A stretch of 34,286 nucleotides of DNA from Methylococcales bacterium. GTDB taxonomy: Bacteria; Pseudomonadota; Gammaproteobacteria; Methylococcales; Methylomonadaceae. The position numbers and the translations under genes were made by a program. The stretch is from NCBI GenBank assembly GCA_028713145.1, contig JAQTOT010000004.1, forward strand, positions 1-34,286, in the 5' to 3' direction. The notes under the pieces are model-generated. The model was not told the origin of the DNA. It saw only the letters and a list, made by a program, of their open reading frames with translations, and did not search any database. Each line of letters opens with the position of its first letter. Within the stretch, counting starts at the first letter, position 1. Below, in pieces: positions 15,293 through 34,286 of the stretch.

Positions 15293-18118
15293 ATGAACGA
15301 TTTACGGACATTTTTTCAAGATTCGTCGAGTTTTTACGGCAGCAATGCAGGTTTTATCGAGGAGCTTTACGAACGTTTTTTGGATAATCCCGAATCTGTT
15401 GAACCCAGTTGGCAAGCGAAATTCCGTGAGTTTCAACAAGCGGGAAATTATGAAATTGCTCACAGCCCGATTATTGAACGTTTCGCGCAGCTTGCCCAAA
15501 AATCCCAAAATCGCCTCAAAAAACTACAAGGTTTCACCGAAGAAAGCGTTAAAAAACAATCGGCTGTTTCGCGTTTAATCAATCATTACCGTGTTCGCGG
15601 TCATCAAATTGCCAATAATAATCCGCTCGGTAAATCGGCTTTTATGCCGCCCGATTTAGACCCCAGTTATTACGGTTTATCTGCGCTGGATATGGATACG
15701 TTGTTTGATACGGGAACTTTGCAAGGAAATGTTTATGCGCCGTTGCGTGAAATTATGGCGAATCTGGAAGATATTTATTGTGGCAGTGTGGGTGCAGAAT
15801 TTATGCACATTGTTGATACCGCAACTCGCCGCTGGATTATCAATCGTTTAGAACACAACGATTTTGCTTTAAAAAAACAACGACTTTCGGCTGAAAAAAA
15901 ACGCCAAACCTTAAAACAACTGATTGCCGCAGAAGGCATCGAAACGCATTTGCATGGCAAATTTGTGGGGCAAAAACGTTTTTCGCTTGAAGGCGGTGAA
16001 TCGTTGATTCCGATTTTAGACGAGTTAATTCAAGGCTTGGGTGCAAAAGGCGCGAGAGAAATTGTTATCGGCATGGCGCATCGTGGACGTTTAAGTGTTT
16101 TGGTGAACATTTTTGGCAAAAATCCAACGGTTTTATTCAACGAATTTGCTGGCACGTCGCCGCTTTCAGAAGGTGTGAGCAGCGGTGATGTGAAATATCA
16201 CATGGGATTTTCGTCGGATGTACAAACCGAAGGCGGCAGCGTTCATATTACGTTAGCGTTTAATCCGTCACATTTGGAAATTATCAATCCTGTGGTCGAA
16301 GGTTCGGTGCGAGCGAGGCAAGACCGAGCAGGCAAAAACGGTATCAATCAAGTCATTCCCGTTTTGATTCATGGTGACGCGGCGTTTTCAGGGCAGGGCA
16401 TCATTATGGAAACGCTCAATATGTCACAAACCCGCGCGTTTTATACGGGCGGCACGGTACATATTGTTATCAATAATCAAATTGGTTTTACTACCAGCAA
16501 TCCACAAGATTCACGCTCAACGCTTTACTGCACCGACGTGGCGCGAATGATTCAAGCACCTGTGTTTCATGTGAACGGCGACGACCCCGAAGCGGTTTTA
16601 TTTGTGACACAACTCGCATTAGATTTTCGCGTTAGATTCAATCGTGATGTGGTGATTGATTTGATGTGTTATCGCCGTTTAGGTCACAACGAAGCCGATG
16701 AACCTGCAATGACACAGCCGTTGATGTACAAAAAAATTCGCGCTCGGCAAACTACGCGCGAAATTTACGCACAACAATTGATTAACGAAGGCGTAATTGA
16801 TGCCGCTGAGGTTCAAAAAGAAATTGACGATTATCAGCAACGTTTAGAAGCAGGCGATTGTGTGTCACGTCCTGTTTCGCATTTGAAGTATTCGTACAGC
16901 GCACAGTGGCATCCTTTTTTACACGCGCATTGGACAACGCCATGTGAAACGAGTGTGAAATTAGAAACGTTGCGTTATTGCTCGGAGCGACTTTTACATT
17001 TGCCTGAAAACTTTGAAATTCATCCGCGCGTTGCCAAAGTGATGGAGCATCGTGCTGAAATGATGGCGGGAACTGCGCCGCTTGATTGGGGCTTTGCAGA
17101 AAATATGGCGTATGCCACGTTGCTTTTAGATAAATTTAATGTGCGTTTAACAGGTCAAGACGTCGGACGCGGCACGTTTGTACATCGGCACGCAGTTTTG
17201 CATAACCAAAATGAGAATCGCGCTTACACACCACTCAAGTATTTGCACAAAGAACAAGGTAACGCACAGATTTACGATTCGCTGTTGTCGGAAGCGGGTG
17301 TTTTGGGTTTTGAATACGGTTACAGCACGACGCTACCGAATACATTGGTGATTTGGGAAGCGCAATTTGGCGATTTTGCGAATGGCGCACAGGTTTTAAT
17401 CGACCAATTCATCAGTTCTGGCGAAACGAAATGGGGCAGAATGTGTGGGCTGGTGATGCTGTTACCACACGGTTTTGAAGGGCAAGGCCCTGAACATTCA
17501 TCGGCGCGATTAGAACGTTATTTGCAGCTTTGCGCCGAGCAAAATATCCAAGTTTGCAGTCCCACAACACCTGCACAAATTTTTCATTTATTACGTCGGC
17601 AAATGCTTCGGAAATATCGCAAACCGCTAATTGTGATGAGTCCGAAAAGTTTGTTACGTCATAAACTCGCTGTTTCAATACTCGATGAATTAACAAACGG
17701 GCAATTTCATCCGATTTTAGGCGAATCTGAAATTGACGATGAAAACGTCACTCGTTTGGTTTTTTGTGCGGGCAAAGTTTTTTATGATTTGCTCGAAACA
17801 CGCCAAGAAGAAAATTTACAGCACATTGCGATTGCACGAATTGAGCAGCTTTATCCTTTCCCTGAAGAATTATTTAAAGCTGAAGTGGCGCGTTATAAAA
17901 ATTTGAAAGAATTTGTTTGGTGCCAAGAAGAACCGAAAAACCAAGGCGCGTGGTACAACTCAAATCATCATTTTTTGGATAATTTACCCGCTGGCATTCC
18001 AATGATTTATGCAGGACGCGAAGCTTCTGCCGCGCCTGCGGTGGGAAATTTTCGTGTACATGTAGAACAGCAAAAAGCGGTCGTTAGTGCCGCACTTGAC
18101 CTGATGAAATCTAACTAA
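15293..18118 (+). CDS. sucA: 2-oxoglutarate dehydrogenase E1 component
   Basis: 941 aa with GMAHRGRLSVLVNIFGK, HGDAAFSGQGI, NNQIGFTT, YRRLGHNEADEPAMTQPLMY. Confidence 0.97.
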   Translation: MNDLRTFFQDSSSFYGSNAGFIEELYERFLDNPESVEPSWQAKFREFQQAGNYEIAHSPIIERFAQLAQKSQNRLKKLQGFTEESVKKQSAVSRLINHYRVRGHQIANNNPLGKSAFMPPDLDPSYYGLSALDMDTLFDTGTLQGNVYAPLREIMANLEDIYCGSVGAEFMHIVDTATRRWIINRLEHNDFALKKQRLSAEKKRQTLKQLIAAEGIETHLHGKFVGQKRFSLEGGESLIPILDELIQGLGAKGAREIVIGMAHRGRLSVLVNIFGKNPTVLFNEFAGTSPLSEGVSSGDVKYHMGFSSDVQTEGGSVHITLAFNPSHLEIINPVVEGSVRARQDRAGKNGINQVIPVLIHGDAAFSGQGIIMETLNMSQTRAFYTGGTVHIVINNQIGFTTSNPQDSRSTLYCTDVARMIQAPVFHVNGDDPEAVLFVTQLALDFRVRFNRDVVIDLMCYRRLGHNEADEPAMTQPLMYKKIRARQTTREIYAQQLINEGVIDAAEVQKEIDDYQQRLEAGDCVSRPVSHLKYSYSAQWHPFLHAHWTTPCETSVKLETLRYCSERLLHLPENFEIHPRVAKVMEHRAEMMAGTAPLDWGFAENMAYATLLLDKFNVRLTGQDVGRGTFVHRHAVLHNQNENRAYTPLKYLHKEQGNAQIYDSLLSEAGVLGFEYGYSTTLPNTLVIWEAQFGDFANGAQVLIDQFISSGETKWGRMCGLVMLLPHGFEGQGPEHSSARLERYLQLCAEQNIQVCSPTTPAQIFHLLRRQMLRKYRKPLIVMSPKSLLRHKLAVSILDELTNGQFHPILGESEIDDENVTRLVFCAGKVFYDLLETRQEENLQHIAIARIEQLYPFPEELFKAEVARYKNLKEFVWCQEEPKNQGAWYNSNHHFLDNLPAGIPMIYAGREASAAPAVGNFRVHVEQQKAVVSAALDLMKSN

Positions 18119-18238
18119 GAAAAAAGGGGGAATTCTGATTTTTAGATAAGAGCATCGAAAAATAGCATTTTCCTTTGTTGCAAGTTTTATCTACGATTCT
18201 TCACATAAACAGATTTCAACACATTTTCAGAGGCTTTC

Positions 18239-19108
18239 ATGGATTTGCATTTACTCGGTGGCTATATCGTTTCAGGCTTGCTGGTTGGCGTATTAGTCGG
18301 ATTAACGGGCGTGGGTGGCGGCTCACTTATGACACCGCTTTTGGTTTTTTTATTCGGTTTTAAACCCGCCACAGCGGTTGGAACAGATTTACTATTTGCC
18401 GCGTTGACAAAAACAGGTGGTGTTTGGGTTCATCATACCAAACACAGTTCAGTAGATTGGCGCATTGTGCGTTGGTTATCGCTGGGTAGTTTGCCCTTTG
18501 CCGTGGCGACATTGTTCGTTTTAAATCACTTTGCAAGCATTGGTAAAGAAACCACCAGCATGATTACCTCAACACTTGGGGTTGCATTATTGCTCACGGC
18601 TTTTTCGATTTTAGTTCGCAGCATTTTGATTCACCGTAATCAAAAAAATTCGGTAAATGTCGTTGCCATTGCCGATGTTGAAGAAGAAACCGAAAGTGAA
18701 TTAGAACAAGATGAAAAAATTGACGAAATTAAACGTGGACGATTCAATCGTTGGCAAATTCCTGCAACCGTTTTGGTCGGTGCGGTACTGGGTGTTTTAG
18801 TCACGCTTACTTCTGTTGGTGCAGGTGCATTAGGAACAATTGTTCTACTATTCTTGTACCCTAAAATGCTCACCGTAAAAGTGGTCGGCACAGATTTAGC
18901 GCACGCCATTCCTTTAACAGCAGTCGCGGGTTTTGGACATTGGATGCTTGGAAATGTCGATTTTATTTTGCTAGGCAGTTTGCTTATCGGCTCATTACCA
19001 GGTATTTGGGTTGGCAGTTTGCTGAGTGCAAAATTACCAGAGCGTTTTCTACGTCCAATTTTAGCGGTATTACTGGTGCTGATTGGGTTAAAATTCGTGA
19101 CAATTTGA
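18239..19108 (+). CDS. Sulfite exporter TauE/SafE family permease
   Basis: 289-aa polytopic protein with duplicated VGLTGVGGGSLMTPLLVF / VTLTSVGAGALGTIVLLFLYP motifs. Confidence 0.88.
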   Translation: MDLHLLGGYIVSGLLVGVLVGLTGVGGGSLMTPLLVFLFGFKPATAVGTDLLFAALTKTGGVWVHHTKHSSVDWRIVRWLSLGSLPFAVATLFVLNHFASIGKETTSMITSTLGVALLLTAFSILVRSILIHRNQKNSVNVVAIADVEEETESELEQDEKIDEIKRGRFNRWQIPATVLVGAVLGVLVTLTSVGAGALGTIVLLFLYPKMLTVKVVGTDLAHAIPLTAVAGFGHWMLGNVDFILLGSLLIGSLPGIWVGSLLSAKLPERFLRPILAVLLVLIGLKFVTI

Positions 19109-19129
19109 TTTTCAAGACGAGAGATTTTT

Positions 19130-19633
19130 ATGGCAACGATTACTTTTCAAAACAACCCGATTCAAACTTGTGGTGAATTGCCTGCAATCGGTAGTGATGC
19201 ACCGAACTTTTCACTGACCAATATCGAACTTAACGATGTCACGTTAGACACTTATGCGGGAAAACGTAAAATTTTAAGCATTGTTCCCAGTTTGGACACG
19301 CCAACTTGCGCGGCTTCTGCGCGTAAATTCAATCAAAAAGCCGCTCATTTAGAAAATACGGTCGTTTTAGTTGTCTCAGCAGATTTGCCATTTGCACAAT
19401 GTCGTTTTTGTGAAATTGAAAGTTTGGATGATATTGTGGTCTTATCGAGCTTTCGAAGCCATTTTGCAACCGATTACGGCGTGCAAATCAGTGACAGTGC
19501 ATTAGCGGGTTTGACAGCAAGAGCGATTGTAATTATTGATGAGCAAAATAAAATTTTATATACCCAACTCGTTTCAGAACTTGCTCACGAACCTGATTAC
19601 GAAGCCGTTTTTAGCGCGTTAAAACACCTCTAA
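19130..19633 (+). CDS. tpx: Thiol peroxidase
   Basis: GSDAPNFSLTN; peroxidatic motif VPSLDTPTCAASARKFN; ADLPFAQCRFCE. Confidence 0.95.
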   Translation: MATITFQNNPIQTCGELPAIGSDAPNFSLTNIELNDVTLDTYAGKRKILSIVPSLDTPTCAASARKFNQKAAHLENTVVLVVSADLPFAQCRFCEIESLDDIVVLSSFRSHFATDYGVQISDSALAGLTARAIVIIDEQNKILYTQLVSELAHEPDYEAVFSALKHL

Positions 19634-20553
19634 TTGTTTGTTGGTTCATATAACACGGCTTGATTTCTACCTTGATTTTTTGCCGTGTAAAGCGCTAGGT
19701 CAGCGTGTTGAACTAATTTTTCTGCTGTTTTATTTTTGGATGGTATTTCTACTGCAACACCTGCACTCAATGTTAGCCTTCCAATGTTTGATTCAGCGTG
19801 CAGCAAGTTTAATTCTCTCAAGCTACGACACAGGGCATTAGCAATTTTTAACGCCACTTTTCCGTCTGTCATCGGTAAAATCAACCCAAATTCTTCACCA
19901 CCGTACCTTGCAACTAAATCACTACTGCGTTTGACGCTACGAATGAGCAAATTCGCCACTTCACGCAAACAATCATCACCTGCTTGATGTCCGTAATAAT
20001 CGTTGTAATTTTTAAACCAATCAACATCAATCATCACAACTGACAGATATTGCCGCATGCGCGTCGCACGTTGCCATTCTTGTGTGAGCTGTTCGTCAAA
20101 TTTACGTCGATTAGCCACGCCTGTTAAACCGTCCGTCATCGCAAGTTGCAATAATTTTTCACGAGCGCATTTGAGTTCAATTTGGTAGGAAACCCGCAAT
20201 TTAACAATAGCGGCACAAAAAGGTTTGCAAATATAATCAGCTGCGCCCATTTCAAGACCTAAAATTTCATGATCTGTATGCGACTTTATTGTGATAAAAA
20301 TAATCGGAATGTCACGGGTTAAATGGTCGGATTTCATCAATCGACATACTTGATAACCATCCATCTCAGGCATCATCACATCAAGTAACATCACATCGGG
20401 TTTTTCTTGCATCGCTACGCGCAATGCTTGTTTGCCATCTGTTGCAAACAAAATGTGATATTCATTATCAAAAATGGCGGCGAGCGCACGAATGTTGTTT
20501 GGATCGTCATCGACAATCAAAATGCGTTGCCTGATTGGTTCAGCATTCATCAT
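19630..20553 (-). CDS. Response regulator diguanylate cyclase (REC-GGEEF)
   Basis: REC motif VMLLDVMMPEMDGYQV; MTDGLTGVANRRKFDE; active site YGGEEFGLI with RSSD I-site five residues upstream. Confidence 0.95.
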   Translation of the reverse strand: MMNAEPIRQRILIVDDDPNNIRALAAIFDNEYHILFATDGKQALRVAMQEKPDVMLLDVMMPEMDGYQVCRLMKSDHLTRDIPIIFITIKSHTDHEILGLEMGAADYICKPFCAAIVKLRVSYQIELKCAREKLLQLAMTDGLTGVANRRKFDEQLTQEWQRATRMRQYLSVVMIDVDWFKNYNDYYGHQAGDDCLREVANLLIRSVKRSSDLVARYGGEEFGLILPMTDGKVALKIANALCRSLRELNLLHAESNIGRLTLSAGVAVEIPSKNKTAEKLVQHADLALYTAKNQGRNQAVLYEPTNN

Positions 20554-23143
20554 TGTTTCCTTTCAAAAAATGTAATGTAATTTTATCTAACACAGGCAAT
20601 GCGGATTGAAAATCCAATTGGTCTAACCATTCTGTTAATTGCTGCGTTTCCTCGCGCAACCCGTTGTGTATCAAATGACCTTTTATTTGTTCAAATAATT
20701 CAGTGGCATTGAAGTGATTACTACGCAATGCGACGTTAAATTGGGTGAGTAGTTTGGAAAATTCAATGTCATCAAGCTCATTTTCCATTGCTGGGTTTTC
20801 GACGGAGATTGGTGGTAACAAGGTAATGGCATTTAGCGCGATAGTCAGCGTGCGTGCGAGTTCTGCTAATAAGGTTTCAATGTTTTCATATTGTTCACAA
20901 TGTAAGGCAAATTCAAGTGCATCGGCGGCGGCGCGTAATTCTTGTGCGGCAAGCGTGCCTGCAACGCCTTTGAGTGAATGCGCTAAATGCTCGGCATGAA
21001 AAAAATCTTTCTCACTAATCCATTGCGTTAATTCGGCAATGGCATTTTGATAACGAGGCACGAAACTAAGTAATAATTGATGCAATAATTTAGGGTCATC
21101 ACCTGTGAATTTTAAGGCTTTTGCTAAATCAAACGGTGGCAAATCGGTTGGCAATAAATCCCAGTGAACGATCTTTTTTTCAATGGGTTTGAGTTCATAA
21201 TCTACCGTTAACCAACGGTTTAAAATACTGACCAATTTATCGATTTCAATGGGTTTGGTTAAATGATCATTCATACCCGCCGCCAAACTTTTTTCTTTAT
21301 CGCCAATCATCGCGTGCGCCGTCATGGCAATAATGGGCAGAGTTTGCAGATGTTTTTCTTGACGAATTAAGCGTGTAGCACTCAAACCATCCATGATAGG
21401 CATTTGAATATCCATCAACACTAAATCAAAATTTTCGCTCAAAACACGCGCTAAACCTTCTTGTCCATTATTTGCAACGCTAACTTCTAGTCCCATGGAC
21501 GTTAATAGTTCAAGTGCGACTTGTTGATTTATTTCATTATCTTCAACAAGTAAAATGCGTTGCGTGTGATAAGTAGGATAATCGCTTGATGTTTTTTCAG
21601 TTTCATTGAACATTTCTAATCCCTCTACACAACGTGGCAATAACACATTAAACGTAAATGTGCTGCCTTGTCCTTCTTCACTGCTCACTTGAATTTCCCC
21701 CCCCATCAATTCCACTAATTGTTTGCAAATTGTAAGACCTAATCCTGTTCCGCCATATTTGCGCGTTGTTGAGGTATCGGCTTGTGAAAAGGGTTGAAAT
21801 AAGCCATTCAATTGTTCTTCGTTCATGCCAATGCCCGTATCAGACACGCAAAAACACAATTCGGCTTCATTTTCAAACACATTTCTTGGCTCAATAGACA
21901 TCATGACTTCGCCTTTATGGGTAAATTTCACCGCGTTCCCTAGCAAATTGAGTAGAACTTGTCCTAAACGCAATGAATCACCAATAAAATAATGTGGTGT
22001 ATTGATAGCCACTTTGAAATTCAGCGAAATCCCTTTTTGCTCGGCGCGAATTTTGAGCATATCAAGCAAATCAATCAGTAATTTATCAAGTGAAAAAGGC
22101 GTGCTTTCAATCGTCATTTTCCCCGCTTCAATTTTAGAAAAATCTAAAATGTCATTGATAATGGCAAGTAATGCTTGTGCTGCCGTTTCAATTTTTTCCA
22201 AATAATCGCGTTGTTTTTCTGTTAATTCCGTTCGTTGTGCTAATTGCGTCAATCCCATAATCGCATTCATCGGCGTGCGAATTTCATGACTCATATTGGC
22301 TAAAAAGTCAGATTTTGAATGACTCGCCGCATCCGCAGCGTTTAGAGCTTTTTGTAAATCAAGTGTTTGTTCATCAACAATTTCTCGCAAATGCTTTAAA
22401 TGGTGCGAAAGGGCTTGCTCGGCTTCATCACGTTGTTGAAAACTTAAATTCAATTGACGCAACATCTCATTAAACGCATCAACTAAACGTCCAAATTCAT
22501 CATTGTTTTCTTTAATTGCCTGCACATTGTAGCTTTTTGCACTTGTCACGCTATGAATGAAATTAACGATTCTGATAATTGGCGTTGAAATGATGCGTTG
22601 TAATTTCAACGACAATAACAGTGCGAGCGCAAGCGTGACACCAAAAGCACTCAGTAACATCAAAGTAAAATCCAACAACTTTTTGTTAAAGGAATCAAAA
22701 CTTGAACGTAAAACTAAATAGCCCAGTAATTCACCATGCAAATCAATAGGCTGCGTAATTTGTATAAAATCTGCTGTCTCAATTTGCGGGGGCAGGGTTA
22801 ATAAATCATTTTCAGCAATCAATTGACCTGTGTAATGCCCATTTCGATAAGCATCTAACAGCTCTTGCTGCGCGTTATAAAGTCCTGCGAACAAAATATC
22901 AGGATTATGTTTTAACGCACCAAGCGTTTTGCGGGTCGTAGAATCATCCATAAACGCAAGTGAAGCTAAACTATTTTCAGAAATAATTTCGGCTTGTGTT
23001 TGCAAATTGTGAATCAAATCACGCTTTGCAAAAGTCATTTCGTAAGTGAATAAAATTAAACTGAACACCAAAAGCGCAAGAATACTGCTTAACGCGGTAA
23101 TGAAAATTAACTTTGTTTTAATCGAGCAATCTTTAAACATCAT
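20540..23143 (-). CDS. Hybrid sensor histidine kinase (periplasmic sensor, HAMP, HisKA, HATPase, REC, Hpt)
   Basis: Two TM segments; [18 protein letters not shown] (H box), [12 protein letters not shown] (N box), [32 protein letters not shown]; Hpt [14 protein letters not shown]. Confidence 0.95.
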
Positions 23144-23703
23144 GGTTGCGGCTCTTTTGACAAAGTTAATAGTTGAGAACTAATTTTTAAGCCTGATAAA
23201 AGAGCTTGAGAATTATTGATAAAAAAGCGGATTTTTTGGTTATCTTCAAACAAATAAATGATGCCTTGATCAAGGATATTTTTTTGTTCGCCAACGGTGA
23301 GAATCGATTTTTTACGAAGCGTTGCTAATACATCTGCTGGCACCACATTTGGAAAATAAAGTAACTGGCATTCGTCGAAATTAGCCTGTGCGTCTACCGT
23401 TTGCACACTAATTTGCAAACCACTCATCATTTTTCCCGCATAGGCTTGTTTTAGTAATTGACCAAAATGCGCGTCATCATAAACACAATAAGTAAAAACA
23501 GACGGTTTTGTTGCCCATTCGGTGAATTGGCTGAAATGAAATAAATAGGCAATTTTGATTTTTTCTGTGCGCTCGACTTCGGTATCTGCAAAAGCAAAAA
23601 CAGGTGAAAAACAGCAAAGTCGCAAAAACAACACGAACGCGCATACTATGCGAAAAATTCGCGTTGTTTGAAAAGTATTCTCGCAGCCAGTTATATTCAG
23701 CAT
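23140..23703 (-). CDS. YfiR-like (DUF4154) periplasmic protein
   Basis: Signal peptide; KIKIAYLFHFSQFTEWATKPSVFTYCVYDD and C-terminal GIIYLFEDNQKIRFFINNSQALLSGLKISSQLLTL are YfiR-type; ATGA overlap with the kinase gene. Confidence 0.85.
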   Translation of the reverse strand: MLNITGCENTFQTTRIFRIVCAFVLFLRLCCFSPVFAFADTEVERTEKIKIAYLFHFSQFTEWATKPSVFTYCVYDDAHFGQLLKQAYAGKMMSGLQISVQTVDAQANFDECQLLYFPNVVPADVLATLRKKSILTVGEQKNILDQGIIYLFEDNQKIRFFINNSQALLSGLKISSQLLTLSKEPQP

Positions 23704-23711
23704 TCTAGCGT

Positions 23712-25739
23712 TTAATATGAAAGACCAACGGTGAAATATACTCGGCGAGTTTCTTGTGGTAAACGTGGCAAGCCACCGCTTAACGCACTGCCGTCAGGCA
23801 AAGGAATCGTAGCAAAACTATCGTTCAAATTCACGGTGTAATACTTGGTATCAAACACATTATTAACACCTAAATCAAAACTGAATTCTGCCGAATTCAG
23901 GGGCAACGCATAATGTACGTTACTGTCAAAAATCGTCACACCGTGTGCAGATTTGCCCTTATAAATGACATTCGATTCATGTGAGTCTACATCATCAAAC
24001 CAGCGTCCCGTAAATCGGAAAGTAAATTTATCCTGTGAATACAGTAAATTACTTTTAATCATGTGTTTGGGGACATTCGTGACATCAACCATCTTATTTA
24101 ATTTCTCAGCATCTTGTCTGCCTAGCGTATAAACATAATTCACATCTGCGCTAATGCCATTTTCAAAGTTTTGCGATTCTCCGACTTGAAAACCATACGT
24201 TTTAATCGTCGCTAAATTATTGTTTGTATTGGGTTTGCCTGTAAAAACGTTATTCACAACGCGAATAATATCGGTGCCAACGTTATAAAACCCCGACAAT
24301 TTAAACGCATTATTTTTGAAGGGCTGGGCATTTAAACCTAATTCATAAGTTTCCAAACGCTCAGGTTTCAACCCCAAATTTGCTCGATGAAAAATAGGGT
24401 CTTGTGGCGTATTCCACGTTTCATAAATTAAATACGGAGATGGTGCAAGATAAGACGTTCCCCACGCGCCAAAGAAACGTAAATCGTTTAACGCTTGCCA
24501 TGAAAAGCCTAAACGTGGATTAAAATCAGGATCATAACGTGAATCCGAATCCATCCGTAGCGAGCCGTTTAAAACAAGTGTTTCTGTTAAATCGTAATTT
24601 AACTGACTGAAAACGGCATAATTTTGGTAATCCGTATGTTTAATTAACGAACTGGCATCCGCACTATTTTTGGGTTGTGAGTGCATAAAACTCAATTCGA
24701 CACCTGTTAACCAATTAACGTTACCTTTTAAATAAGCAACTGTCTCATTGAATCGCATCGCATCGCCATGCCATGAAATTGGCGCACTCGCGCCCCAAGC
24801 ACGATAACTTGAACCATCTGCCAACTCTGTACTTTCATAACTCAAACTGGTTTTGGCTTGCCAAAATGGATTGATGTCCCAGTTATAGGTTGCGTTTGCC
24901 ATTTGATTAACGGTTTCAAAAAACGCTTTACCAGAATAATCATAGCTAATCGGTGGCGCAGGATTAAACGACAAACTGGTATTTGCATTGTTATGAATAC
25001 GGTAATAACTGAGTGTTAAATCTTTGTAGTTAGCTTTGAAATGAATGTTGTGATTTTGCTCTGTTAAATCAACAGGCGTTTTGCCGTAAATTTCTGGGTA
25101 ATTTTGACTTAAATTTTCCTGTGCGCTGTTATGAAAACTGCCTGACAAAGACACGTTAATGTCTTCGTTAATTTTTTTCCCCGCCGCGACTTGCACTTCG
25201 GCAGTATCGCGCGTTGCACCTGTGGCTTTAATTTTTATGCCATTTAAATCGTTACCGCTTTGCGTGACGATGTTAATGGTGCCAAGCATGGCATCTGCGC
25301 CATAAATGGATGAAGAAGAACCTAAACTAATTTCAACTTGTTTTACATCAAGCAGCGGCATGGCGTGATAAAACGCAGTGGGTTCACCTGTTGGTGCTTT
25401 GACTTTATTACCGTCAATTAACAATGTAATTTTGTCGTTAGCAAAAATGCCTCGTATGTAAATTTCAACGCCTGCTTTTTCGGTAGAAGCTAAATTTGCA
25501 AGGTGAATATCGGGGATATTTTTCAAAATGTCGGTTAAAAAACGATAGCCTTTGCGCGAAATTTCGTCTTGCGAAATAACGTATGCCGTGACAGGCGATT
25601 TGTTAATCGACATCGGCATTTTAGTAATCGAGGTGACTTGCACGTCCATTAACTGATCAAACGGAACGTCAGTAAATTGCCCTTCGGCGCACACGACTTG
25701 AGTAAAAACCAATGATAAGAATAGGGGATTTAGTTTCAT
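23712..25739 (-). CDS. TonB-dependent receptor (copy 1)
   Basis: Signal peptide, plug domain (PVTAYVISQDEISRKGYRFLTDILKNIPDI...YIRGIF...LLIDGNKV...GSSSSIYGADAMLGTINIVT), beta-barrel ending in aromatic TVGLSY. Confidence 0.93.
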   Translation of the reverse strand: MKLNPLFLSLVFTQVVCAEGQFTDVPFDQLMDVQVTSITKMPMSINKSPVTAYVISQDEISRKGYRFLTDILKNIPDIHLANLASTEKAGVEIYIRGIFANDKITLLIDGNKVKAPTGEPTAFYHAMPLLDVKQVEISLGSSSSIYGADAMLGTINIVTQSGNDLNGIKIKATGATRDTAEVQVAAGKKINEDINVSLSGSFHNSAQENLSQNYPEIYGKTPVDLTEQNHNIHFKANYKDLTLSYYRIHNNANTSLSFNPAPPISYDYSGKAFFETVNQMANATYNWDINPFWQAKTSLSYESTELADGSSYRAWGASAPISWHGDAMRFNETVAYLKGNVNWLTGVELSFMHSQPKNSADASSLIKHTDYQNYAVFSQLNYDLTETLVLNGSLRMDSDSRYDPDFNPRLGFSWQALNDLRFFGAWGTSYLAPSPYLIYETWNTPQDPIFHRANLGLKPERLETYELGLNAQPFKNNAFKLSGFYNVGTDIIRVVNNVFTGKPNTNNNLATIKTYGFQVGESQNFENGISADVNYVYTLGRQDAEKLNKMVDVTNVPKHMIKSNLLYSQDKFTFRFTGRWFDDVDSHESNVIYKGKSAHGVTIFDSNVHYALPLNSAEFSFDLGVNNVFDTKYYTVNLNDSFATIPLPDGSALSGGLPRLPQETRRVYFTVGLSY

Positions 25740-25777
25740 ATTTTAAACGTGAGCATTTTTGCGTAATTATGATGGGT

Positions 25778-27778
25778 TTAATATGACAAACCAACAGTTA
25801 AATACACTCGGCGAGTTTCTTGTGGTTGAACTGGCAGACTACCGCCAAAACTGTCATACAAAGGCACGACATAATATTTCGTATCAAGTAAATTATTTAC
25901 GCCTAAATCCACACTAAATTCTGCCGATTGAATCGGTTGCACATAATGGATGTTGCTATCAAAAATGGCTGTGCCGTGCATTTGATCCCCCTTGTAAATT
26001 TTATTCGATTCATGTGTGCCAATATCGTCAAACCAACGTCCTGTGAAACGAAAAGTGAAATTATCCCATGCGTAAAGCAGATTACTTTTTATCATGTGTT
26101 CGGGGGAATTCGTGATATTTACCATGCTATTTAATTTTTCTGCATCTTGCTGTCCTTGAGTTAATGTATAACTTAGGTCTGCACTCAAATCGCGCGTGAA
26201 TGTTTGACGTTCGACTATTTGAAGACCATACGTTTGCGACGTTGCAATGTTATCCCAAAAGCCAAGATTTCCTACGTTTGTCAATCTTATAAGGTCTTTA
26301 CCATCGGTAAAAAAGCCCGACATTTTGAGCGAATTCCCCTTAAATGGCTCAACGTTAAAACCTAATTCTGTCGTCATGGTTTTTTCTGGGCGCAAATTCA
26401 AATTAGGACGACCATAAGCGGGGTCGCTTGGCATATTCCATGTTTCATACATTGAAGACGGAGCCGGTGCTAAATATGACGTTCCGATAGAGCCAAAAAA
26501 TCGGAGTTCTGTCATTGCTTGCCAAGAGAAACCAAACCGAGGATTGAAAACAGGAGAGTAACGAGAATCGGCATCCATTCGCAATGAGCCATTTAATGCG
26601 AGTGTTTCGGTTATGTCATAATTGAGTTGTGTATAAACAGCGTAATTTTGATACCTGAGGTGATATTTTGGCAAAGTGGGTACATCGTATTGATTTCTGG
26701 GTAACGAATTCATCGCACTGACTTCGATACCACTTAGCCAATTGATGTCGCCTTTGAGATAAGCAAGTGTTTCTGAAAAACGTGCTGCCTCACCAAACCA
26801 TGTCATATTTTGGTCAGGCGTAAGACCTGTTTTAAAACTTGAGGCTTTTGATAATTCTGTACTTTCATAGCTTAAACTCGATTTTGCCTGCCAAAACGGA
26901 TTGATTTCCAAATTATAAGTGACATTTGCAGTTTGATTAGTGGGTTCCCAAATGGATGGTACACCAGAATAAAACTCAGGATTGAATGAAAGAACATTGT
27001 TATTTCGAGTTTGTGTGCGGTAATAACTGACGAGTAAACTTTTGTAATTTGCGTTGAAATGTAGATTTGAATTTTGTTCAGTTAAATCTAAAACGTTAGC
27101 TTTGCCATAAATTTCAGGATAATTTTCTTTCAAATTTTCTTGGCCTGAATGATGAAAACTTCCCGTTAATGAAACGTTAATATCTTCATTTATTTTTTTT
27201 CCAGCGGCGACTTGAACTTCTCCCGTATCGGCTGTTCCGCCCGTTGCTTTTATTTTCAAACCGTTTAAATCCCCCCCCGTTGTTGTCACTAAATTGATTG
27301 TGGCGAGCATCGCATCCGCACCATAAATGGATGAAGATGCACCTAAACTAATTTCAACTTGTTTGACACCGATGAGCGGCAAGGCATTGTAAAATGTCGT
27401 AGGTTCACCCGTCGGTGCTTTGATTTTATTACCGTCAACAAGCACCGTAATTTTGTTATTAGCGAAAATGCCGCGAATGTAAATCTCATTCACGCCTTTT
27501 TCGGAAAAAGCTAAATTTGTGACATAAAATTCAGGGGTATTTTTCAAAATATCAGTCAAAAAACGATAGCCTTTATGACTAATTTCATCTTGCGAAATCA
27601 CATAAGCGGTGACAGGGGATTTATTGAGAGACATTGGCATTTTGGTAATCGATGTGGTTTTCACATCGACTAATTCCTCCAATGGAATATCTGTAAATTT
27701 GTCAGTCTCTGCAAAGCCGTCTGAAAAAAAAACAGCCATTCCAATGAATGATACTAATGTGAGCCAATATAATGTCAT
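25778..27778 (-). CDS. TonB-dependent receptor (copy 2), paralogous to the preceding one; likely start MTLYWLTL (27778); ORF extends to 27823
   Basis: Signal peptide MTLYWLTLVSFIGMAVFFSDGFA-ETDKF; plug domain nearly identical to copy 1; C-terminal LTVGLSY. Confidence 0.92.
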   Translation of the reverse strand: MTLYWLTLVSFIGMAVFFSDGFAETDKFTDIPLEELVDVKTTSITKMPMSLNKSPVTAYVISQDEISHKGYRFLTDILKNTPEFYVTNLAFSEKGVNEIYIRGIFANNKITVLVDGNKIKAPTGEPTTFYNALPLIGVKQVEISLGASSSIYGADAMLATINLVTTTGGDLNGLKIKATGGTADTGEVQVAAGKKINEDINVSLTGSFHHSGQENLKENYPEIYGKANVLDLTEQNSNLHFNANYKSLLVSYYRTQTRNNNVLSFNPEFYSGVPSIWEPTNQTANVTYNLEINPFWQAKSSLSYESTELSKASSFKTGLTPDQNMTWFGEAARFSETLAYLKGDINWLSGIEVSAMNSLPRNQYDVPTLPKYHLRYQNYAVYTQLNYDITETLALNGSLRMDADSRYSPVFNPRFGFSWQAMTELRFFGSIGTSYLAPAPSSMYETWNMPSDPAYGRPNLNLRPEKTMTTELGFNVEPFKGNSLKMSGFFTDGKDLIRLTNVGNLGFWDNIATSQTYGLQIVERQTFTRDLSADLSYTLTQGQQDAEKLNSMVNITNSPEHMIKSNLLYAWDNFTFRFTGRWFDDIGTHESNKIYKGDQMHGTAIFDSNIHYVQPIQSAEFSVDLGVNNLLDTKYYVVPLYDSFGGSLPVQPQETRRVYLTVGLSY

Positions 27779-27795
27779 TAAGCAATTGTTTACCT

Positions 27796-28863
27796 TTAAA
27801 TTCCAACGATGGGTTCTATCCATTCAAAACTGGGTGCGCCATGAACATTATCACTGTCGCTAATACGCAAACTCATCATTTCATGAGCAATAGATGTCAT
27901 ATTGTGCATTCCATTGATAATCGCATCATATAAAATAGATGGATTGCCATTAAAAGCCTTTGCCAATTGGAAAAGCATTAAAGAGTATTGACTATTAAAT
28001 TCATCATTTAGAGATGCCAAATGAGAGCCGACTGGATAATCGGAACTTTTTGCATTACGTTTGATAGGAAATACGGCTTTATAATCGACTTCAAAATGTT
28101 CGCCAGAAGGCGGGTCTTTTGGTTTATCGCCAGCTTGATAATAACGACCACAGGCAATTTCGTTGAAACGAAAGTAATGGGCAATTTCATTTGGTTGCTC
28201 AAAATAGGTCTCATCACCATCAAAAATCGAATCATGCGAACCTTCGCCTTGTTTTATGATGACGTTCAATGCTTCTAATGCCGTTTCAAGCGAATGAATG
28301 AGAATTGGTTTTCCTCCACCAGCCCAATAATATCTTTCATTTATTTGATCATCTGTGTTGCCGCAAAACACCTCAGATTCTGGAAATTTCGAACACATCT
28401 TTTCCAATAATTCCATTATTTGCTTATAAAATTCACCAATGGTGATACCTGGAATTTCCACCTCTGGCGATTCATCTTGCACTGACGTTTTAGATATGAA
28501 ATTGGCGGGCATTTCAATTTGCTTGAAAATGTTGATTGCTTGAGGAGAAAACGCCTCCAAATTAACATCGAATTCCCTATCTTTAAATCGTTTGCCTTCA
28601 AATTCCAATCGTAGCGGATAAGTTGGGATATTTTGTTTTTGCAAACAAACTTTTCCGCCAAGACTAGAAATCAAATTCCCTACCAATGTCATGTGTAGCA
28701 TTTCTTCCATGAACACACTTCTTATCAAATTAGCAGATATTCGATTTTGATGCTTTTTCATACTTAAAAGAGCAGTCAAATAGGGCGGAATTGTTGATAA
28801 TTCCACCTCAAAAGCCGTTTGTAACTGTGCTAAAACGTTAGCTTTTTGATTTTGTAGAGTCAT
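27796..28863 (-). CDS. Ferritin-like protein of the iminophenyl-pyruvate dimer synthase (VioB/RebD C-terminal-like) family; start at MTLQNQK
   Basis: N-terminal helix pattern LQTAFEVELSTIPPYLTALLSM ... IRSVFMEEMLHMTLVGNLISSLGG (E...EExxH-type metal site), YFRFNEIACGRYYQ. Confidence 0.7.
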   Translation of the reverse strand: MTLQNQKANVLAQLQTAFEVELSTIPPYLTALLSMKKHQNRISANLIRSVFMEEMLHMTLVGNLISSLGGKVCLQKQNIPTYPLRLEFEGKRFKDREFDVNLEAFSPQAINIFKQIEMPANFISKTSVQDESPEVEIPGITIGEFYKQIMELLEKMCSKFPESEVFCGNTDDQINERYYWAGGGKPILIHSLETALEALNVIIKQGEGSHDSIFDGDETYFEQPNEIAHYFRFNEIACGRYYQAGDKPKDPPSGEHFEVDYKAVFPIKRNAKSSDYPVGSHLASLNDEFNSQYSLMLFQLAKAFNGNPSILYDAIINGMHNMTSIAHEMMSLRISDSDNVHGAPSFEWIEPIVGI

Positions 28864-28877
28864 ACGTTTTTCCTCCC

Positions 28878-30497
28878 TTATTTTGAATATTCGCAATTAT
28901 GATATGCAGACGTACCGTTTAGATAATCGCCAAGACGTAAAGCAAGCGCAGTTAACGTTAAAGTCGGATTTATTGCCCCAGACGACGGGAAAACGGCAGT
29001 GGAACAAATATACACATTATCTACACCATGAATCTGCAAGTTAGAATCAACCACACCGCTTTTTTCATCGTCGCTCATTCTGCATGTGCAAGCCGCATGG
29101 TCTGCACGCCAAGATATATTGGGTTTTCCTGACAATGTAGCTGACATAGTCTCAAAAATACGTTTAACATGCTCTTGAATTTCTTGCATACGTTGGTCAA
29201 ATCCGTCAGCCTGACTAAAATCAATGGCTGTTTCAATCATTCCCATGTGGTTAATTCGATTGAAGTTAGTAACGCGGTCTTTGAAATCACCAACAATTTC
29301 TACCATGCCATGCAATTGAATTTCGTTGTTTCCCTTAACGTAATTATCGATGTCTTCTCTGCTATTCCCAGATTGCATCTTACTTAGCAAATCTACTGAA
29401 GGTGAACTTGGCGGATTAACCAGAATGAATTTACCTTTAGCTTGTTCTTCTTTGCTATCAAAATGACGCGTGCAAAGTGTTGGGAAATTCATTTCAGACT
29501 GTAAATCAAGTGGGTTAGTAGACATATTCCCAGAAAAAACAAAATACGGATGCGTGATGAAATGACGACCGACTAAGTCATAATCATTCCCTAGTCCATC
29601 ACACCAAAATTCGGAAGTAGAACGTTGCAACAACTTAGAAGATTCTATTGTTCCCGCCGCAATAATTACTTTATCCGCATCTACGGTTGTCCATTTTCGG
29701 TTTTCTTTATCAAAAAACATTGCGCCACTCGCACGATGTTTTGAAGACATAATTATTTTATCTACCACACAATTGAGTTTAATTTGAAAGTTTGGATAAT
29801 CGTTCCAAGTTGTCATATCACTCAAGAAATTATTAGCAGAATAGCGTGCGCCGAAGGGACAATAATCGCATGTGCCAGTTGTTTGGCAAGGAGCATGAGT
29901 TGACGTAGTGTTTGTTATGCCATGTCTAGCTATCGGTACATGACTATAACCTATGCAAAGTGAGTTTAAGGCTTTTGCAATAGGTTGATCTTCTAAGGTG
30001 TATGGAAAAGCGGGAAATGGGTAATTTTCAGATCGTGGAACGGTCGTATCATTTGAATCACCAGAAACACCAATATACCATTCTGCTTGGTTGTAATACG
30101 GTTCAAGTTCATCATAACCGAATGGCCAATCCATACCTTGCCCAGTGTTAGAGAATAGATTGAAATCTTCGGGTTTTAATCTAAATGCCCATCCCCCCCA
30201 ATGAATTGTTGACCCACCATAAGTAAAAACACGAGCATTTCTCAATGGTACGGTAGTTTTTCCAAGACTAACATTTTCACCTTTATGATCTCGTTCAGGA
30301 TAGGATTCGTCATAATACTTAGTGTAAGGCAGTTTCGCAGATACAATGTAATCTTGCCAGATTGCAGAATCTTGCATTTTTACCTTAGTTCCCGCTTCAA
30401 GTATTAGTATTGATGCGTGAGGATTTTTCAAAAGTAAGCGTTGTGCAAGTGCTGTCGCTACAACACCAGAACCTATTATCAATGTTTCTACTTTCAT
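28878..30497 (-). CDS. GMC-family flavin oxidoreductase with CX5CX2C motif
   Basis: FAD Rossmann motif LIIGSGVVATALAQRLL...ILEAG; GGSTIHWGGWAFRLKPEDF; CQTTGTCDYCPFGARYSA; C-terminal VYICSTAVFPSSGAINPTLTLTALALRLGDYL. Confidence 0.88.
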   Translation of the reverse strand: MKVETLIIGSGVVATALAQRLLLKNPHASILILEAGTKVKMQDSAIWQDYIVSAKLPYTKYYDESYPERDHKGENVSLGKTTVPLRNARVFTYGGSTIHWGGWAFRLKPEDFNLFSNTGQGMDWPFGYDELEPYYNQAEWYIGVSGDSNDTTVPRSENYPFPAFPYTLEDQPIAKALNSLCIGYSHVPIARHGITNTTSTHAPCQTTGTCDYCPFGARYSANNFLSDMTTWNDYPNFQIKLNCVVDKIIMSSKHRASGAMFFDKENRKWTTVDADKVIIAAGTIESSKLLQRSTSEFWCDGLGNDYDLVGRHFITHPYFVFSGNMSTNPLDLQSEMNFPTLCTRHFDSKEEQAKGKFILVNPPSSPSVDLLSKMQSGNSREDIDNYVKGNNEIQLHGMVEIVGDFKDRVTNFNRINHMGMIETAIDFSQADGFDQRMQEIQEHVKRIFETMSATLSGKPNISWRADHAACTCRMSDDEKSGVVDSNLQIHGVDNVYICSTAVFPSSGAINPTLTLTALALRLGDYLNGTSAYHNCEYSK

Positions 30498-30967
30498 TGT
30501 TTATCCTCAAATGTTCTGTAAGGAGCTGGTTGATCAGGTATATAAGCCCTACCAATATAACCACAATAATTCTTCGCACCCCATGATTTAAAACCACCTA
30601 ATGCAAGTTGCCATGCCATGAATTCATTAGCCACTTTTTGTCGTGTTAACGCAAGAGGCGTTTCAGGTGGTGATTCCATTGCATTGTTATCGGTGAATAA
30701 AAATTCATAAGCTTTGTCGTTTCCGTATTCTAAAATCAGCTCATCCATAACGTTTTTTGCAATTTTGTAATAGTCGTTATAAATCGGACGTAGGTTGATA
30801 CGATTGACCATGAAACTGTAAAGCTGAGATTTTAACGGCTGTGGATCATCCAAATTTTGCCAAAATTTGCCAATATGAATAAAAATTTCCCACATGGACG
30901 TAAAAACCTCATCACTAATAGGAGGTAAATTGGCACATAGTGGATGTTTTGCAGCTTTTTGATACAT
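30494..30967 (-). CDS. Uncharacterised 157-aa protein, candidate small partner subunit of the GMC oxidoreductase
   Basis: Good ORF with RBS (aggag) upstream; ATGA overlap with the GMC gene start; no motif I recognise with certainty (C-terminal ALGGFKSWGAKNYCGYIGRAYIPDQPAPYRTF). Confidence 0.7.
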   Translation of the reverse strand: MYQKAAKHPLCANLPPISDEVFTSMWEIFIHIGKFWQNLDDPQPLKSQLYSFMVNRINLRPIYNDYYKIAKNVMDELILEYGNDKAYEFLFTDNNAMESPPETPLALTRQKVANEFMAWQLALGGFKSWGAKNYCGYIGRAYIPDQPAPYRTFEDKQ

Positions 30968-31020
30968 ACGAATTACTCCTGAAAAATTGACGAAGTTTTG
31001 TTACACCAAGAATAAAATTT

Positions 31021-31881
31021 TCAACAAATAATTTGCCCGATTTTTTCACCGACCTTCACAGATTTTCCTGCAAAAAAATTACTATCCCAATTCATTTTGT
31101 CTTTTTCAAACAGCACAATAATCGTCGAACCCATATTAAAACGTCCCATTTCGTCGCCAATTTTTAGCGTTGGTGCGTCGTTGTCATAAGTCCAGCGGCG
31201 AATTTCTTTGCACGTTGGCGGCGTAACCACACCGTGCCAAACCGTTTCAATACTGGAAACGAAAATTGCCCCGACCAAAACCAATGCAACTTGTCCGATT
31301 TCGGTATCGAAAATTGCCACGACGCGCTCATTTTTTGCAAATAAACCATTCACAGCCTGCGTTGTTGCGCCGTTGACGCTAAATAATTTTCCAGGTACAT
31401 GAATCATCTCGCGCAACGTGCCAGTGAGCGGCATGTGCAAACGGTGATAATCTTTGGGCGATAAATAAATCGTCGTGAATTCGCCGTCGTTGAATTTTTC
31501 AGCGCGAGCCAAATCGCCACCGAGTAAATCCCTGACCGTAAATCTTTTGCCTTTTGCTTGAAAAATATCACCACTTTCAATTTTTCCTGCTTGACTGACA
31601 ACGCCATCAGCAGGGCTTGCAATGGCATTTTTTTCAGTTGTTAAGGGTCTTGCGCCCGCTTTTAATTCACGAGTGAAAAAGTGATTGAAACTTTTAAAGG
31701 CATTTAAATCTTGGGTAATCGATTCGTCCCAGTTCACGCCGTAGCGTGTGGCAATTTGGCGAATCAAAAAGTTTTTCCATGTCACGTTTTCACAATGCGT
31801 AAATTTACTCACAAATTGTGACAAGGTGTGTTGCGGCAAAATAGTTTGTGAGAATTCAACGAGCGTATTTTTTAAAGTCAT
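31021..31881 (-). CDS. psd: Phosphatidylserine decarboxylase proenzyme
   Basis: [55 protein letters not shown] (autocleavage G-S-T site). Confidence 0.96.
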
Positions 31882-32156
31882 GAGTTTGGGGAATCAAGTG
31901 TTTTTCCGCTGAGTCCGTAAGCAAATGCAATGACTTCGGCAACAGCGAGATAGAGTTCTTCGGGAATTTCGTCACCCAAAGGAATTTTAGACAACATATT
32001 GACCAATTCGGGGTCTTTATAAATTGGGATGTCGTGTTCCTGAGCAATTTTTAAAATTTGCTCGGCATTTAAACGTGCGCCTTTTGCCGTCACGGTTGGC
32101 GCATTGTCTTTTTCTAGTTCGTATTTGAGCGCGACGGCAAAATTAGGCGGCAACAT
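31878..32156 (-). CDS. Stand-alone FlhB/EscU C-terminal-domain-like protein
   Basis: 92 aa: [75 protein letters not shown] is the cytoplasmic C-domain of FlhB without the membrane domain. Confidence 0.88.
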
Positions 32157-32158
32157 AA

Positions 32159-32548
32159 TTAAGGCAATGTCACAACTTCAGGTGCAATCCACGCTTCGTT
32201 GCGATGTTCCACCACAACACTCGTATAAATGCCACCACGCACATAAAAATCAGCACGAACACGCATAAAGTTTGGTGAAATCGCGTGAACTAAGTCATCT
32301 AAAATCTGGTTGGTAATCGCTTCATGAAACGCGCCTTCTTCACGAAATGACCACATATATAATTTGAGCGATTTTAATTCGACACACAATTCAGCAGGAA
32401 CGTACTCGATTTTAATTGTCGCAAAATCAGGTTGTCCTGTTTTTGGGCAAAGGCAAGTAAATTCAGGAATATCAAAACGGATGGTGTAATCACGATCCGT
32501 TTGTGGATTGGGGAAAGTTTCTAAGTCTTTTGAAGGTCTTGTAGTCAT
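32159..32548 (-). CDS. queF: NADPH-dependent 7-cyano-7-deazaguanine reductase (preQ1 synthase)
   Basis: 129 aa: [47 protein letters not shown]. Confidence 0.96.
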
Positions 32549-32621
32549 GTTTTTCTAGGTTTGACGTTAAAAATTGGTCTTCATTTTAATGCAAACCTAG
32601 GCAGATTCATAACTCGTTAAA

Positions 32622-33404
32622 TTACGCGCGTTTTGCTTCGTTCCAAAATGTGTCTAATTCATCTAACGAATAATCCTTTAATACACGCCCAGCGGTAGCG
32701 ACTTGTTTTTCAATATATTGAAAACGTTTAGAAAATTTCTGTGTACTTTCTTTTAACGCAAGTTCGGGATTGACGTTTAAATGCCGCGCTAAATTCACCA
32801 CAACCAGCAACAAATCACCGATTTCTTCTTGAATATGCACTTGATTACCCGATTCCCAAGCTTCTTTGACTTCATCTAATTCTTCCAAAACTTTCTCAAA
32901 AACGGGTGGAACTGTTTGCCAATCAAAACCATGTTGCGCGGCGCGGTCTTGAATTTTTTCACATTCTAAAAGTGCGGGAAGTGAACGGGCAACGCCTGAT
33001 AAAACGCTTTCTAATTCGGGACTTTTTTCTTTTCGTTCATCGGCTTTAGATTGTTCCCACGCCGCATGACGCTGTGCATCGGTTTCAAAAATCGCATCAC
33101 CAAAAACGTGCGGATGACGACGCACTAATTTGTCGGCAATCGATTGCGCCACATCGTCAAATGAAAACAAGCCGCGTTCGTTGGCAATTTGCGAATGAAA
33201 CACGACTTGCAACAGTAAATCACCGAGTTCAGCGCGTAAATCGTCTAAATCTTCACGTTCAATAGCGTCAACGACTTCGTAGGCTTCTTCGATAACGTAG
33301 GGAATTAAACTAGCGAAATCTTGTTTAACATCCCACGGACAACCCGTTTCTGGATGGCGAAGTTGCGTCATAAGGTCGAGTAAATTTTGAGTATTTTTTA
33401 ACAT
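32622..33404 (-). CDS. mazG: Nucleoside triphosphate pyrophosphohydrolase MazG
   Basis: LRHPETGCPWDVKQDFASLIPYVIEEAYEVVDAI...DLRAELGDLLLQVVFHSQIA; second EELDEVKEAW...EIGDLLLVVVNLARH. Confidence 0.96.
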   Translation of the reverse strand: MLKNTQNLLDLMTQLRHPETGCPWDVKQDFASLIPYVIEEAYEVVDAIEREDLDDLRAELGDLLLQVVFHSQIANERGLFSFDDVAQSIADKLVRRHPHVFGDAIFETDAQRHAAWEQSKADERKEKSPELESVLSGVARSLPALLECEKIQDRAAQHGFDWQTVPPVFEKVLEELDEVKEAWESGNQVHIQEEIGDLLLVVVNLARHLNVNPELALKESTQKFSKRFQYIEKQVATAGRVLKDYSLDELDTFWNEAKRA

Positions 33405-33521
33405 GGTTTTAAGTGTCCAAAGAATGAGTGGCGAAATTATACAACGACTTGCTAAATCGCCACGTCAGCTTATTTTCGGCTATAATTTCGCATCTTTTTT
33501 CGTTTAATTTCGGTCAATATC

Positions 33522-34286
33522 GTGTCAACAAATCAAAAAGTAACCACCTTTCAAGGGCTAATTTTGGCTCTACAAACTTATTGGGCAGAACAAGGTTGTG
33601 TGCTGCTACAACCACTAGATTTAGAAGTCGGCGCGGGAACCTTTCATCCTGCAACTTTCTTACGCGCTATTGGCCCTGAGCCTTGGAGTGCGGCGTATGT
33701 ACAACCTTCACGTCGTCCAACAGATGGGCGTTATGGAGAAAACCCAAACCGTTTGCAACATTACTACCAATTCCAAGTGATGCTCAAACCGTCGCCTGCG
33801 GATATTCAAGATTTGTATTTAGGTTCGCTCAAACGCTTAGGTTTTGATTTACTTGAACATGATATTCGTTTTGTCGAAGACAATTGGGAATCGCCAACGC
33901 TTGGGGCGTGGGGTTTAGGTTGGGAAGTTTGGCTCAACGGCATGGAAGTCACGCAATTCACTTATTTCCAACAAGTCGGTGGGCTGGAATGTCGCCCCGT
34001 CACAGGCGAAATCACTTACGGTTTGGAACGTCTTGCCATGTATTTGCAAGGCGTGAACAGTGTTTATGATTTGGTTTGGACAGAAACGCCACATGGCGTG
34101 GTGACTTACGGTGACGTGTTTCATCAAAACGAAGTGGAAATGTCAGCGTTTAATTTTGACCACGCAAAAGTCGATTTTCTGTTTGAATGTTTCAACACTT
34201 ATGAACAAGAATGCCAAAAATTGATTGCCGCTGATTTGCCCTTGCCTGCGTATGAAATGGTGTTGAAAGCCTCACACACGTTTAAT
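33522..34286 (+). CDS. glyQ: Glycine--tRNA ligase alpha subunit, GTG start, truncated at window end
   Basis: Translation from GTG at 33522: [86 protein letters not shown]...; absent from the supplied ORF track because it is GTG-initiated and runs off the end. Confidence 0.97.

Follow-up and report, generated by a model that had tools for sequence, protein, structure and literature searches.

A Resident Cyclic di-GMP Signaling Operon and a Mobile Oxidoreductase Trio Very Probably Lie End to End in a Methylococcales Bacterium

We analyzed a stretch of 34,286 nucleotides (referred to here as the window; contig JAQTOT010000004.1 of assembly GCA_028713145.1) from a Methylococcales bacterium, in which eight consecutive minus-strand genes bring together a trio of presumed oxidative enzymes, two TonB-dependent receptors, a YfiR-like protein, a hybrid histidine kinase, and a diguanylate cyclase. 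This cluster very probably joins, end to end, two modules that are unrelated to each other: a resident operon for signaling through cyclic di-GMP (c-di-GMP) and a horizontally acquired, mobile oxidoreductase trio. This reading builds on direct observations of gene content, conservation, insertion boundaries, codon bias, and the independent occurrence of the trio elsewhere. Because the trio is foreign and mobile, and because relatives carry the operon without it, a pathway leading from enzymes to signal is most likely a mere coincidence of gene placement. The eight genes are as follows.

30494..30967, minus strand: p157, a small protein of 157 aa encoded by the first gene of the trio; assigned to no known family and without a signal peptide
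28878..30497, minus strand: GMC oxidoreductase, similar to flavin adenine dinucleotide (FAD)-dependent glucose and fructose dehydrogenases; Cys204/210/213 and catalytic His467/Asn510 conserved
27796..28863, minus strand: ferritin-like PF12902 protein; most likely ATG start at 28863
25778..27778, minus strand: TBDR1, TonB-dependent receptor with plug and barrel; likely ATG start at 27778
23712..25739, minus strand: TBDR2, TonB-dependent receptor with plug and barrel; 99.6% identical in the nearest species (genome G002)
23140..23703, minus strand: YfiR/HmsC-like periplasmic protein (DUF4154)
20540..23143, minus strand: hybrid histidine kinase, CHASE8-HAMP-HisKA-HATPase-REC-Hpt
19630..20553, minus strand: REC-GGEEF diguanylate cyclase with an RxxD I-site

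Results

The trio is an insert relative to congeners

The ferritin-like, GMC, and p157 proteins had no match in any of 17 same-genus genomes. In G002, psd abuts TBDR1, and the flanking proteins except TBDR1 are 94 to 100% identical to those of the window. Positions 16955 to 27699 and 31012 to 34286 align to G002, in which 80 bp replaces the approximately 3.3 kb from 27700 to 31011. Next to this segment, identity to G002 is lower, at 82% across 945 bp within TBDR1 and 86.6% across 269 bp within psd, while it is 96% further out on both sides. The features that define the junction are listed below.

31021..31881, minus strand: psd, phosphatidylserine-decarboxylase-like, the fixed upstream neighbor of the cassette in the genus; named from its protein sequence alone, with no family scan
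27700..31011, no strand: inserted segment without a counterpart in G002 (80 bp instead), from alignment to G002
26755..27699, no strand: divergent right flank inside the 5' half of TBDR1, putative recombination tract; 82% identical to G002 versus 96% beyond
31012..31280, no strand: divergent left flank at the 3' end of psd, putative recombination tract; 86.6% identical to G002 versus 96% beyond

To judge from the alignment, divergent flanks of this kind are the pattern expected when a segment is imported from a relative through homologous recombination. Along with the insert, TBDR1 diverges from G002 in its 5' half, comprising the plug and part of the barrel, and its 3' half is 96% identical, which amounts to a half-swap of the receptor.

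Codon usage was evaluated against a background of 100 genes of the same genome, taken from 20 contigs plus the window. In synonymous codon usage, the GMC gene exceeded every one of the 90 background genes of similar length; the ferritin-like gene fell at the 98.9th percentile, and p157 fell at percentile 92.3 of a background of only 13 genes. The corresponding percentiles were 54, 7, and 30 for TBDR1, TBDR2, and the kinase and 89.5 and 93.7 for YfiR and the cyclase, both of which are short. Codon usage of the trio is foreign, and that of the receptors and kinase is ordinary for the genome; GC content did not separate the trio from the cassette.

The signaling cassette is resident in the genus

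The cassette is a resident, operon-like block downstream of psd that is conserved across the genus. The YfiR gene was found in 15 of the 17 same-genus genomes (in G014 it is split across two contig ends), and congener gene maps display the order psd-receptor-YfiR-kinase-cyclase, in most cases with the same TSUP-like and peroxiredoxin-like neighbors. Wherever the junction lies on a contig in these maps, the trio never occurs between psd and the cassette. The ends of the cassette are optional: receptor number varies, with none in G013 and G016 (L050 and L051) and two in G002 and G003, and in G010, G011, and G015 (L049, L048, and L041), the kinase has no cyclase listed next to it. Nonetheless, a receptor, a YfiR-like protein, and a YfiR-associated kinase are encoded together in the window and in most congeners. 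The YfiR protein matches PF13689 (1.1e-30) and scores 38.9 bits with the YfiR equivalog, below its cutoff of 85. By sequence inspection, the His, Asp, and Hpt motifs of the phosphorelay are intact, as are the GGEEF motif and the RxxD I-site. The relay half put forward by the first-pass annotation of this DNA, which runs from TonB receptor to REC-GGEEF by way of YfiR and the Hpt-bearing hybrid kinase, holds as a block conserved across the genus.

The trio occurs independently in distant genomes

The p157-GMC-ferritin-like order recurs on plasmids, namely pRlX3 of Rhizobium johnstonii (two strains), pME152 of Methylorubrum extorquens, and p3 of Rhizobium sp. NZLR1, with GMC proteins about 56% identical. 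Genome G433, from a small class that we take to be Magnetococcia, carries the trio in the same order on a 749-kb contig, with GMC 63% identical. In G1261, which belongs to the family of the host, a p157-GMC pair without the ferritin-like gene was found (GMC 58.6% and p157 56.7% identical). This pair (L125, 214-12430) lies beside a GajA/GajB Gabija pair and RecT, YqaJ, DnaN, and helicase genes, with another gene that is SSB-like by sequence, and is likely located on a mobile element. More distant p157-GMC pairs (37 to 38%) are present in G442 and G873, where the small protein has a twin-arginine leader. Trees of the three genes share a Rhizobium/Methylorubrum clade and agree in their main groupings, with several supports low. 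The trio is a mobile set that moves between distant Pseudomonadota. At none of the other loci examined did TonB-YfiR-kinase-cyclase genes lie beside the trio or pair; distant YfiR homologues are encoded elsewhere in the genomes of G1261 and G433.

p157 is rare. The window genome aside, the host's class yielded no credible relative among 369 genomes; the counts were 1 of 385 genomes in the class of G452 and 2 of 48 in that of G433, with one more in 301 genomes of the host's order. A match in G378 was rejected as chance, being located inside an RND-type transporter. Viral contigs contained no p157 relative and a single weak ferritin-like fragment, and phage records contained no p157.

Several further loci were observed in the course of the survey. 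On a Bradyrhizobium elkanii plasmid (L093, 7320-9029), a ferritin-like gene (46%) lies beside a truncated GMC gene of about 80 aa, possibly a decaying copy. In G045, genes for 652-aa and 329-aa proteins without a Pfam family are followed by one for a distant relative (33%) of the ferritin-like protein (L057, 6917-9861). At two Rhizobium loci (L090 and L092), a secreted protein carrying a single CxxCH motif is encoded upstream of the trio.

Defense genes were found near several trio or pair loci; PADLOC recognized those for GajA/GajB (at the G1261 pair), IetA/IetS, and ThsB-like TIR proteins. In R. johnstonii TP5 pRlX3 (L090, 11528-18571), IetA/IetS-like genes lie 411 bp after the trio, and in Rhizobium sp. 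NZLR1 p3 (L092, 2605-5916), PADLOC identified ThsB-like TIR proteins near it. The M. extorquens locus encodes a SIR2 protein with a weak PADLOC match, and CHAT-domain genes are located near the pair in G442 (L095, 11951-14593) and the trio in G433 (L094, 14578-18069). None of the three trio proteins matched a PADLOC-DB model. We regard this defense neighborhood as a lead only.

Likely biochemistry of the trio proteins

The GMC protein contains both the N- and C-terminal GMC_oxred domains and aligns over its full length to the glucose dehydrogenase BcGDH and to fructose dehydrogenase (profile 2.5e-64). H467 and N510 align to the catalytic H476 and N519 of BcGDH, and C204, C210, and C213 are invariant, with the spacing CX5CX2C. 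In BcGDH, C212, C218, and C222 (CX5CX3C) hold a 3Fe-4S cluster (PMC6719666). The window cluster encodes no multiheme cytochrome c subunit; elsewhere, only the single-CxxCH protein is encoded upstream at the Rhizobium loci.

p157 belongs to no family in Pfam, NCBIfam, or PADLOC, and an AlphaFold model from one sequence gave a mean pLDDT of 41, too low to be of use. We considered whether it is a diverged gamma subunit of glucose dehydrogenase and rejected this, as hhalign against 18 gamma-type proteins gave <1% probability and no PDB match was found; p157 is an analogue of that subunit by position only. No secretion signal was found in the p157 proteins of the trio loci, and the automatic "RR" flag on the L092 protein was discarded, its start reading MYQRRAIHP with no hydrophobic stretch behind.

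The ferritin-like protein matches PF12902 (4.4e-53, 180.8 bits) and resembles PDB 3hl1. Its conserved E21, E53/E54, H57, E207, H229, and E235 (numbered from the 28863 start) could be ferritin-type metal ligands. Taken together, the trio likeliest comprises an FAD/Fe-S dehydrogenase of the GMC type that works in the cytosol, its small partner, and a di-metal ferritin-like enzyme, predicted to share a small substrate. A literature search returned nothing on the trio.

Gene starts and transcription

The open reading frame list reproduced exactly the eight consecutive minus-strand genes first described, and three overlaps could be read in the sequence: ATGA at 30494-30497 and again at 23140-23143, and one of 14 bp at 20540-20553. 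Longest-frame coordinates are 30494-30967, 28878-30497, 27796-28896, 25778-27823, 23712-25739, 23140-23703, 20540-23143, and 19630-20553; two further overlaps in this list, at the ferritin-like gene and TBDR1, are artifacts of choosing the longest frame. For the ferritin-like gene, ATG 28863 is preferred to TTG 28896 as the most likely start; it is preceded by GGGAGG and lies 14 bp past the GMC stop. For TBDR1, the most likely start appears to be ATG 27778, 17 bp past the ferritin-like stop and followed by a plausible signal peptide. Among the domain calls, Pfam bore out GMC, PF12902, the two TonB receptors, YfiR, the hybrid kinase with Hpt, and REC-GGDEF, while a full VioB assignment failed (16.4 bits against an equivalog cutoff of 1250).

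In a sequence scan of the cluster, promoter-like and terminator-like sites were as numerous as in shuffled sequences; hence, a single transcript for the eight genes is no more than possible. Since psd is only 53 bp upstream of the trio, by spacing alone such a transcript need not start at the trio's edge.

Two observations concern the surroundings. At 31878-32156, the window encodes an orphan 92-aa protein whose match to FlhB/YscU (PF01312) is confined to the C-terminal portion; its gene, psd, and a QueF-like gene form a run. We read the host as a methane oxidizer because its genome contains a PmoA/AmoA-family gene.

Discussion

We propose that the resident module would relay from the outer membrane to c-di-GMP: a receptor event would alter periplasmic YfiR, which may gate the periplasmic CHASE8 domain of the kinase, and phosphate would then pass through His, Asp, and Hpt to the REC domain of the cyclase, whose GGEEF domain makes c-di-GMP. 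The trio would have entered between psd and TBDR1, most likely by homologous recombination with an unsampled relative as the donor, and this recombination would have replaced psd at its 3' end and TBDR1 over its 5' half. GMC would then act as a cytosolic FAD/Fe-S dehydrogenase together with its small partner protein, and the ferritin-like di-metal enzyme may act on the substrate of GMC or on the next one. At most, trio and relay would be linked by read-through from a shared promoter.

Several points weigh against this proposal. The flank identities do not polarize the event between a gain in the window genome (G000) and a loss in G002; what argues for gain is just the wider absence in congeners and the codon bias. 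A join introduced in assembly is conceivable because the host is a draft metagenome-assembled genome of 248 contigs, though both flanks continue syntenically with G002. Moreover, the 5' half of TBDR1 lies on the trio's tract; therefore, a receptor variant and the enzymes may have traveled together, which would suit coupling, and a donor with both trio and cassette probably existed at least once. Finally, few trio loci are known.

What the trio does for its carriers is a separate matter. In the boldest proposal, p157, GMC, and the ferritin-like protein constitute an undescribed mobile oxidoreductase system, which travels with conjugative plasmids and with integrative elements, next to genes of Gabija, IetAS, and Thoeris, which confers a selectable trait (phage defense or a small oxidized metabolite for competition) and in which a new small-protein partner replaces the hitchhiker subunit of glucose dehydrogenase; we give this a small but real chance. 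It is distinctly unlikely that the trio is a module of defense islands or of competition between elements, an oxidoreductase set guarding its host or carrier element against phage and with no c-di-GMP role, although this would be compatible with two joined modules. GajA/GajB beside the G1261 pair, IetA/IetS directly after the R. johnstonii TP5 trio, the ThsB-like TIR proteins of NZLR1, the SIR2 protein of M. extorquens, and the CHAT-domain genes near the G433 and G442 loci all point in that direction; however, all three trio proteins lack a PADLOC match, cargo regions of plasmids are generally rich in defense genes, and the window locus has neither a defense neighbor nor an effector-like domain.

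The first-pass annotation had proposed that a small molecule made or oxidized by the enzymes is bound by both TonB receptors and that YfiR, the hybrid kinase, and the cyclase convert this into c-di-GMP. We consider this very unlikely. Eight tightly spaced genes on one strand do suggest coupling, and a receptor whose 5' half lies in the trio's divergent tract could have been imported with a ligand-making set. On the other hand, no trio gene was found in 17 congeners, 15 of which have the YfiR gene of the cassette, psd abuts TBDR1 in G002, codon usage is foreign in the trio and native in the receptors and kinase, the trio proteins lack secretion signals, and the insert encodes no exporter. The neighborhood survey is unfavorable as well: the other trio and pair loci examined have no cassette genes beside them, and the two halves were never linked in any other surveyed genome, an outcome that the first-pass annotation had itself named as refuting its model. 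Lastly, an ancestral trio lost from the other species of the genus is hardly credible, for although the flank identities leave the direction of the event undecided, the trio would have to have been lost from G002 as well as from every other congener sampled, and the codon bias would stay unexplained.

If two modules were joined, as we prefer, the locus illustrates that recombination can bring unrelated modules into a tidy one-strand cluster, in which operon logic alone yields a false ligand-to-c-di-GMP pathway. The trio itself, with an unnamed small protein, an Fe-S-type GMC dehydrogenase, and a ferritin-like partner, is compact enough for expression and assay.

Comparison with known systems

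YfiBNR (TpbB) of Pseudomonas aeruginosa is a c-di-GMP system composed of periplasmic YfiR, the membrane-bound cyclase YfiN, and the lipoprotein YfiB. The cassette has in common with it a periplasmic YfiR/DUF4154 protein, a partner that bears a periplasmic CHASE8 domain, and c-di-GMP as the presumed output; it differs in that CHASE8 is on a hybrid kinase, the cyclase is a separate soluble REC-GGEEF protein, and a TonB receptor is added. No YfiB or OmpA-like gene was found in the cluster among window reading frames and Pfam domains.

A literature search returned nothing on a TonB-YfiR-kinase cassette. A close counterpart is the NCBIfam set of TOL_0244 TonB receptor, TOL_0243 YfiR-like protein, and "HK near YfiR-like," in which the same three kinds of protein are clustered. 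By these models, the cassette is a relative of a known kind, since each protein is matched by the corresponding model, below the cutoffs of NF053590, NF053591, and NF053592 (83.5 and 107.8 versus 645 bits for the receptors, 80.3 versus 125, and 154.2 versus 194). Here, a REC-GGEEF gene usually follows, and the receptors may be in tandem.

With the VioB/RebD iminophenyl-pyruvate dimer synthases, the ferritin-like protein shares the PF12902 domain and gives the weak VioB score noted above. Unlike them, it is a stand-alone protein of about 356 aa whose partner is GMC and not a VioA/RebO-type amino-acid oxidase; thus, with the equivalog cutoff missed and a GMC partner, a violacein or rebeccamycin set was rejected.

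The trio also recalls the FAD-dependent glucose and fructose dehydrogenase complexes (BcGDH, PDB 6a2u; fructose dehydrogenase, PDB 7w2j). It differs from those complexes in that no homology between p157 and the hitchhiker subunit was detectable, p157 has no twin-arginine signal in the trio, and a ferritin-like gene is added; the cysteine spacing of the window GMC is one residue shorter than that of BcGDH. What they share is the GMC fold along the entire protein, three cysteines at the 3Fe-4S position, both catalytic residues (His and Asn), and a gene for a small protein immediately upstream.

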